From Gemmatimonadota bacterium (lineage in GTDB: Bacteria > Gemmatimonadota > Gemmatimonadetes > Gemmatimonadales > GWC2-71-9), in contig SHZU01000004.1 of assembly GCA_009692115.1 (NCBI GenBank), positions 62,001 to 126,000 of the forward strand: a stretch of 64,000 bases of DNA. The letters run 5' to 3'. Each line of letters starts with the position of its first letter. Within the stretch, counting starts at the first letter, position 1. The position numbers were made by a program, and so were the translations under genes. Positions 4,766-5,805 of the stretch are shown in pieces. Below the pieces are notes generated by a model. That model did no database searches. It was given only the letters and a program-made list of their open reading frames with translations, and had not been told where the DNA came from.

Positions 4766-5329
4766 ATGTGGATCACCACCGTCCCGATGACCGAAGCGAG
4801 CGCCGAACTCCAACGCGCCGTCGAAGACCAGATGGGCCTCTACCCTGCCGAATACAACCGCCCGGTCCACCCGACCGGCGGCGGCACCTCCGGCATCGTC
4901 GCGTCGCATAGCCTGATTCCGGGGGCGTTGAAACACGCGTTCTCAACGTTCGGGGCGCTGATGGATCCCGAGCTGCCGCTCAGCCGGCGTCACCACGAAC
5001 TGATCGCCACCATGGTGTCGGTCACCAATCGGTGCCGGTATTGAATTGACTCGCACGCAGAGTTTCTGCGTCGGGTTACCCTGGATGAGAGCCTGATCGC
5101 CGCGGTCACCGCCGACTACACGACGGCGCCGCTCACCGATGCCGAGCGGGTGATGGTCGATTACGTCGTGCAGATCACCAAGGACGCCACCAAGGTGACG
5201 CCCTCGCACCACGAGCAGCTTCGGGCGGCTGGATTCGATGACCGAGGCATTCTTCAAATCACCCTGATCGCGTCCTGGTTCAACTACATCAACCGGGTGG
5301 CGGATGCCCTCGGCTTGGGACGAGACTAG
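4766..5329 (+). CDS. AhpD-like / peroxidase-related selenoprotein, UGA read as selenocysteine at residue 93
   Basis: Reading from ATG 4766 gives 92 residues ending NRCRY, then TGA at 5042-5044, then a further 94 codons in the same frame ([10 protein letters not shown] to LGLGRD) to TAG at 5327. Both halves belong to the alkylhydroperoxidase/carboxymuconolactone-decarboxylase (peroxidase-related) family. The UGA falls at the second cysteine of the CxxC active site, giving C90-R-Y-U93, with the conserved His four residues later (H97). Total length of 187 aa is normal for the family. A SECIS-like hairpin follows directly. The start WITTVP matches the usual family N-terminus. Likely role: thiol/selenol-dependent peroxide reduction. 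It converges with a glutathione peroxidase, their ends overlapping by 4 nt. A nonsense mutation of an ordinary Cys codon is the alternative. Confidence 0.85.
5047..5078 (+). promoter_or_regulatory. Bacterial SECIS-like stem-loop downstream of the UGA
   Basis: Seven lower pairs (5047-5053 with 5072-5078, two of them G-U) and, after one bulged C at 5054, six perfect pairs (ACGCAG 5055-5060 with CTGCGT 5066-5071) close a five-base loop, AGTTT, at 5061-5065. The loop starts 16 nt after the UGA and has G at its second position. Both fit published criteria for bacterial SECIS elements bound by SelB (loop 16-37 nt from UGA, G in the first two loop bases). The fold was made by eye and its energy was not computed. 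Confidence 0.75.
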
Positions 5330-5805
5330 CCGAGGAGGGGCGTGATATCCGCTTCGATCTCCTCGGGCGTCTGCTTCGAGGCGTAACGCTCGAGCACCGT
5401 GCCGTCCGCGTCGACGAGGAACTTGGTGAAGTTCCACTTGATCGATTCGGTGCCCAGAATCCCCTTCTGGGCCGACTTGAGATACTGAAAGAGCGGATGG
5501 GCCTGGTCGCCGTTGACGTCGATCTTGGCGAACATCGGGAACGTCACGTCGTATTTGGTCCCGCAGAACTGCATGATCTCCGCATCGGTTCCCGGCTCTT
5601 GATTGGCAAACTGGTCCGACGGGAAGCCGAGGACGGAAAAGTTCTGGCCCTTGTACCGGCGGTAGAGGGCTTCGAGTCCCTTGTATTGGGGTGTGAAGCC
5701 GCACTTGCTGGCCACATTCACGATCAGCAGCACCCGGCCCTTGAAGTCGGCCATGGAGCGTTCCTTCCCATCGATCGTCGTGGCGGTATAGTCGTACACT
5801 GACAT
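5326..5805 (-). CDS. Glutathione peroxidase family protein (Cys form)
   Basis: The 159-residue protein has the standard GPx motifs: NVASKCGFT with the peroxidatic Cys at residue 35 (a Cys, not Sec), [14 protein letters not shown] with the catalytic Gln, and [10 protein letters not shown] with the catalytic Trp/Asn. Most bacterial members of this type use thioredoxin rather than glutathione. It has no signal peptide and is likely cytosolic. Its start is only 3 nt from the stop of the upstream creatininase-family gene, so the two are probably co-transcribed. Its stop overlaps the stop of the convergent AhpD-like selenoprotein. Confidence 0.93.

Follow-up and report, generated by a model that had tools for sequence, protein, structure and literature searches.

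In the window, by which we mean the whole 64,000-nucleotide stretch of contig SHZU01000004.1 from a Gemmatimonadota bacterium analyzed here, the forward strand carries at positions 4766-5329 a frame that opens with an ATG at 4766, closes with a TAG at 5327-5329 and contains exactly one in-frame TGA, at 5042-5044. When this TGA is read as a residue, the frame specifies a 187-residue AhpD-like protein of the peroxidase-related CMD family, with selenocysteine (Sec) predicted at position 93; a gene caller reading UGA solely as a stop would split the gene. The choice of start codon fits the close orthologues, whose matches begin at residue 2 (a W). The read-through product is recovered both by the Pfam CMD profile (43.1 bits, cut-off 23) and by the NCBIfam family TIGR01926, 'peroxidase-related enzyme' (109.9 bits, cut-off 81.8), of which it is a member by score. 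An initial annotation made from the letters alone had joined the two family-matching halves in one frame across the single TGA, and the frame is as it described. Convergent with this gene, on the reverse strand at 5326-5805, lies a gene for a glutathione peroxidase (Pfam GSHPx) with Cys in its SKCGFT motif, which overlaps the end of the AhpD-like gene by four bases. A seven-base unit, GCCGAGN, is repeated in short runs at several places in the window (from 4731, 10742 and 25884 on the forward strand, and from 61752 and 47415 on the reverse strand), and one of these runs lies just ahead of the ATG of the AhpD-like gene.

The TGA takes the second position of a CxxU motif in the context C90-R-Y-U93-I-D-S-H97, which agrees with the earlier description of a TGA substituting for the second Cys in a CxxC motif (C-R-Y-U) with a His at +4. 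Sequence alignments set a Cys, likewise the second of a CxxC motif, opposite Sec93 in the proteins of known structure 2pfx, 2oyo and 3c1l. A predicted structure of the protein, computed with Cys in place of Sec (mean pLDDT 88.9), matches best, among the folds in the PDB, the alkyl hydroperoxide reductase 6k40 (TM 0.84).

A search of the source genome together with 60 relatives recovered matches to the gene in 44 of the 61 genomes, 66 in all. Codon 93 is TGA in 42 of the 65 homologues that cover it (our own included), TGC in 19 and TGT in four; one match, G013:C341, spans residues 126-184 only and was left out of these counts, and L064 and L065, each with one TGA away from codon 93, were counted among the 23 Cys homologues as they have TGC and TGT at that codon. 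A separate search, of named genomes, turned up 307 relatives, the best 80 of which all have TGA at the site (80/80). The two sets overlap, as several of the 80 (L102-L105, L107, L108 and L118) are, by length and range, the same contigs as loci of the 61 genomes; of the two peptide patterns used to retrieve the named relatives, one spans part of the protein sequence of the hairpin described below, back-translated in degenerate form. Judged by record title, the 80 comprise 58 Acidobacteriota, 16 Gemmatimonadota, four Planctomycetota, one Latescibacterota and one KSB1; most are metagenome bins, in which a contig may be misassigned. Among 395 genomes drawn from the phylum, 20 (our own included) have an orthologue at E<=1e-40, each with one TGA; this lies at the same codon in all 20, having been located in eight of them and then in the other 12. 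A tree places the window gene among Gemmatimonadota (smallest starred set of five rows, 100/99). A search for Cys orthologues in the acidobacterial phylum was unsuccessful, and among the close orthologues inspected there was no group with Cys codons and no hairpin. The initial annotation had held that close relatives with TGC or TGT and no hairpin would count against a selenoprotein; the close relatives instead keep the TGA along with a conserved hairpin. No relatives in viral contigs were confirmed, and the plasmid matches (205 records) were all below 60% identity.

Downstream of the TGA we find the predicted core of a bacterial SECIS hairpin at 5055-5071, in which a 6-bp stem (ACGCAG/CTGCGT) pairs 5055-5060 with 5066-5071 and encloses an apical loop, AGTTT, at 5061-5065, with a G at loop position 2. 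The loop begins 16 nt past the TGA, and stem length, loop, distance and G agree with the hairpin of the initial annotation. Folding of the window predicts an extended stem around the core (5047-5078), the lower part of which varies among the orthologues. The bSECIS model, as given in a 2026 review (PMC13188914), calls for an apical loop of 3-9 nt, an upper stem of 4-16 bp, a loop 16-37 nt after the UGA and a G within the first two loop positions; with its loop of 5 nt, stem of 6 bp, G at position 2 and distance of 16 nt, the window hairpin follows the model on every count, in keeping with the earlier appeal to bacterial SECIS spacing rules. By itself this loose model does not discriminate, as 14 of the 23 Cys homologues also have, 16-37 nt out, a stem of 4 or more pairs whose loop carries such a G. 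The hairpin does form in the minimum-energy fold, with one extra A-U pair and a GUU loop at 17 nt, although its energy is ordinary (z -1.15, with 26 of 200 shuffles as good); fold energy is thus weak on its own as proof of a SECIS. Random synonymous recoding of the window stretch yields an equally good hairpin in about 1% of cases (P 0.010). An Rfam search of the window at the gathering threshold reported nothing but a tRNA.

Stronger evidence for the hairpin comes from its conservation at the nucleotide level. In eight close orthologues (the window included), compared at 104 degenerate codons with an invariant amino acid, all six hairpin codons are identical, whereas outside the hairpin 7 of 98 are (Fisher P 1.1e-6); no invariant run of DNA in the compared stretch is longer than the 20 nt that span the hairpin core. 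Among 81 sequences (the window and the 80 named orthologues) the share of the commonest codon averages 98.8% over the six codons of the hairpin. Over 44 other conserved codons, located between 30 codons before and 59 codons after the TGA, it averages 61.2% and reaches at most 85.9%. Since shared descent would also freeze other codons, this pattern argues for selection on the hairpin and not for recent common descent, and these codon comparisons indicate that the hairpin is under selection as a nucleic acid. A template-free scan, in which a G was required at loop position 1 or 2, showed that the best stem has 6 or more contiguous pairs in 41 of the 42 Sec genes and in none of the 23 Cys homologues, with median scores of 18 and 9.5, respectively (P 4.5e-11). 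Four hairpin templates, picked after the folds had been seen, fit fully in 40 of the 42 Sec genes and in 0/23 Cys homologues; when they are shifted by codon steps at most 18 of the 42 fit, at -3. The recoding test reached P<0.05 in just 16 of the 42 Sec genes, and in none of the 23 Cys homologues. Compared with the next group of relatives, whose hairpin has the same spacing as that of the window, C-G is exchanged for G-C at one stem pair and A-U varies to G-U at another; the remaining four pairs never vary, so that just one of the six changes on both sides. We regard this exchange only as supporting evidence, as the pairs were counted in 18 of the 42 sequences that had been selected for forming the complete six-pair stem at the spacing of the window, and the 100% pairing among them is therefore by construction.

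The source genome (3.12 Mb in 23 contigs, 97.09% complete) encodes a tRNA-Sec, which scores 67.3 bits (cut-off 47) and is called tRNA-SeC with anticodon tca by ARAGORN, along with selB (303.5 bits), selA (525.5 bits) and selD (379.2 bits), all above their cut-offs. By these matches the genome can make selenocysteine, as the initial annotation had supposed from the gene itself when it proposed a search for selA, selB, selC and selD. The selD gene (L019:1501-2418, contig C8) contains an in-frame TGA at its 11th match residue, followed by a predicted hairpin, and is probably a second selenoprotein gene. With SelD beside the AhpD-like protein, the selenoproteins of this genome most likely number at least two. 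No stop interrupts the matches to selA, selB and prfB in this genome. In the wider set of genomes, co-occurrence with selA says little, given that selA is above its cut-off in 26 of the 32 genomes with a Sec-type gene versus 19 of the 29 without one; five of the six Sec-type-gene genomes in which it falls below the cut-off have a tRNA-Sec, and the sixth is 61% complete. A relative of the same genus (G002, 95% complete) yielded no match to the AhpD-like gene or to selA and no tRNA-Sec above the cut-off, its best tRNA-Sec match, at 46.6 bits, being a tRNA-Ser according to ARAGORN; this looks like a joint loss of the selenium trait.

These observations bear directly on two explanations that dispense with selenocysteine. 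In one of them the gene would be a decaying pseudogene whose Cys codon has mutated to a stop, or the TGA a sequencing error, and the hairpin a coincidence. A single base separates TGC or TGT from TGA, and the window by itself is compatible with such an event; however, the same TGA is shared by 42 of the 65 loci (our own included), by the 80 best named orthologues and by all 20 matches in the phylum, both halves of the gene are conserved, and the hairpin codons are near-invariant. On the strength of the conserved TGA, halves and hairpin codons we reject this explanation, to which we give practically no chance. The earlier argument, that a random nonsense mutation could hardly account for the coincidence of TGA, site and hairpin, is borne out by the recurrence of the TGA at the same codon in orthologues with near-invariant hairpin codons. 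The other explanation, under which the organism would decode UGA generally as Trp, Gly or Cys by reassignment or read-through, would account for no more than the presence of UGA within a conserved frame. Against it, RF2 is encoded in the genome (prfB, 504.2 bits), which means that UGA is not simply reassigned, the matches to selA, selB and prfB are stop-free and that to selD has its one TGA at the 11th match residue, and in the AhpD-like genes the TGA is confined to the position of a redox Cys, in a genome equipped with tRNA-Sec, selA, selB and selD. In view of RF2, the stop-free genes and the Sec machinery a code reassignment is likewise rejected, as very improbable, though a shade less so than a decaying gene. 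What comparison supplies is the family, the frame, the position of the UGA, the selection on the hairpin and the selenium machinery, and from these we infer the actual insertion of Sec. Taken as comparative evidence, they make a very strong case that 4766-5329 is a genuine selenoprotein gene, and it is highly probable that its product is a selenoprotein, namely an AhpD-like oxidoreductase with a Sec-Cys redox pair.

Under this selenoprotein reading, SelB bound to the hairpin downstream of the UGA would bring Sec-tRNA(Sec) to codon 93, and translation would continue to the TAG at 5327. The product would consist of an all-helical CMD/AhpD domain, with Sec93 and Cys90 as the redox pair and Glu78, Tyr92 and His97 as a proton relay. 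Cys90 (5033-5035), the presumed partner of Sec93, is conserved in 65 of 65 homologues and in all 81 sequences comprising the window and the 80 orthologues. Of the predicted relay residues, Glu78 (4997-4999) is present in 42/42 Sec homologues and 81/81 of the latter set, at a spacing like that of Glu36 in PA0269, and His97 (5054-5056) in 42/42 Sec homologues, 21/23 Cys homologues and 81/81; position 92 is Tyr in 32 and Phe in 10 of the 42 Sec homologues. E78, C90, Y92, U93 and H97 are thus found at the conserved spacing of an AhpD-type peroxidase relay. In M. tuberculosis AhpD the attacking residue is, as we presume, the Cys equivalent to Sec93. A five-residue relay of the form E-x11-C-x-(H/Y)-C-x3-H is described as common to PA0269 and M. 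tuberculosis AhpD in PMC3141380, and Glu78, Cys90, position 92 and His97, together with Sec93, fit this pattern. The initial annotation had designated the TGA site as that of the attacking residue; PMC3141380 credits the activity to both Cys residues. Sec93 would most likely attack a peroxide or a disulfide of a partner protein, upon which a Sec-Cys bridge to Cys90 would form, to be reopened by a cellular reductant. On this model, in which the order of attack, the substrate and the reductant are likewise inferred, we take the protein to be a selenol-thiol oxidoreductase in which Sec93 would attack and Cys90 would be the partner.

That its main activity is the reduction of peroxides or disulfides seems to us somewhat favored. 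The claim that the organism uses Sec for peroxide detoxification stands as regards the selenoprotein, while the use against peroxide is read from the family. A sizeable minority of our confidence goes to a genuine selenoprotein with a main role other than these reductions, such as a reductive dehalogenase like the debrominase Bmp8 or an enzyme of some other redox step. The AhpD-fold structures of Bmp8 itself (6ohi and 6ohj; TM 0.73) are among the fold matches, the related PA0269 is only a weak peroxidase according to PMC3141380, and no AhpC-like partner or reductase was recognized by eye among the 16 largest clusters of neighboring genes at the 81 loci, so that genomic context does not support the function. 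On the other hand, the nearest relatives in both sequence and fold belong to the peroxidase-related AhpD group, the relay residues are conserved, and the convergent glutathione peroxidase adjoins the gene not only in the window but also in the three nearest named relatives, i.e. in 3 of 80 loci (best 80 of 307). As to the remaining neighborhood, with cluster names assigned by eye from sequence for the 16 largest clusters, the largest cluster (64 of 81 loci) is on the minus strand, overlaps the AhpD-like gene and reads as its antisense; two others, an AMP-ligase-like ORF (28 of 81 loci) and a permease-like ORF (24 of 81), are absent from the window.

The family was already known to include selenoproteins, in line with the earlier statement that AhpD-like selenoproteins had been found in metagenomic surveys. 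A 2005 study of the Sargasso Sea reported 27 sequences of AhpD-like CxxU selenoproteins belonging to COG2128 (PMC1088965), and 'AhpD-like 1' is entered in Table 2 of the GOS survey with 299 sequences, as the fourth most numerous family (PMC2398784); one protein, MCB9421940.1, is placed under COG2128 in PMC9312934 and under TIGR01926 in PMC13188914. The window gene shares with these proteins the TIGR01926 match, Sec at the second CxxU position and a predicted SECIS past the UGA. By this link, which rests on TIGR01926 and the papers just cited, it is a member of the known AhpD-like CxxU selenoproteins (COG2128/TIGR01926). It differs in coming from Gemmatimonadota and in belonging to an orthologous group with no Cys member among those inspected. 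The Cys-type peroxidase-related AhpD structures (2pfx, 2oyo, 3c1l, 6k40 and 2prr) match it in sequence and fold, with TM up to 0.84, but have Cys instead of Sec and an identity of 22-31% in the fold alignments. Two related families whose names mark (seleno)proteins, NF041238 (AhpD_rel_CFYUT) and NF053654 (YciW-related (seleno)protein), do not include it, as it scores 55.9 bits against a cut-off of 175 and 37.6 bits against 310, respectively. M. tuberculosis AhpD (1gu9, 1knc) has the same relay pattern E-x11-C-x-(H/Y)-C-x3-H (PMC3141380), although the overall similarity is weak (TM about 0.5, E >0.05), and the score against canonical AhpD, TIGR00777, is 23.7 bits, far under the cut-off of 191.95. 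For Gemmatimonadota, none of the titles listed in the literature searched, with subscription journals mostly outside it, dealt with this gene or with the selenoproteome of the phylum, and the main texts of PMC13188914, PMC12013277, PMC5029168 and PMC9312934 do not mention Gemmatimonadota.

Two features may be new, the absence of Cys members from the orthologous group and its frozen hairpin; both rest on the genomes compared here. They raise the tentative, and in our estimate rather doubtful, possibility of an obligate-Sec orthologous group that spans Gemmatimonadota, Acidobacteriota and Planctomycetota and may extend to other lineages (one bin each of Latescibacterota and KSB1), with no Cys version and with a SECIS core kept near-frozen while the rest of the gene drifted. 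If this were the case, the enzyme would need selenium chemistry and the SelB proteins of distant phyla would read one common hairpin, in contrast to the usual easy exchange of Sec and Cys in bacteria. The relatives also offer a natural series in which to study Sec/Cys exchange: a single order includes 42 homologues with Sec and 23 with Cys, hairpins of several geometries serve the same enzyme fold, and in one group Sec alone is seen. Several groups of AhpD-fold selenoproteins (the Sec rows of L030-L063) differ from one another in hairpin sequence and spacing, and a single genome, G035, has three Sec genes (L042, L057 and L062).
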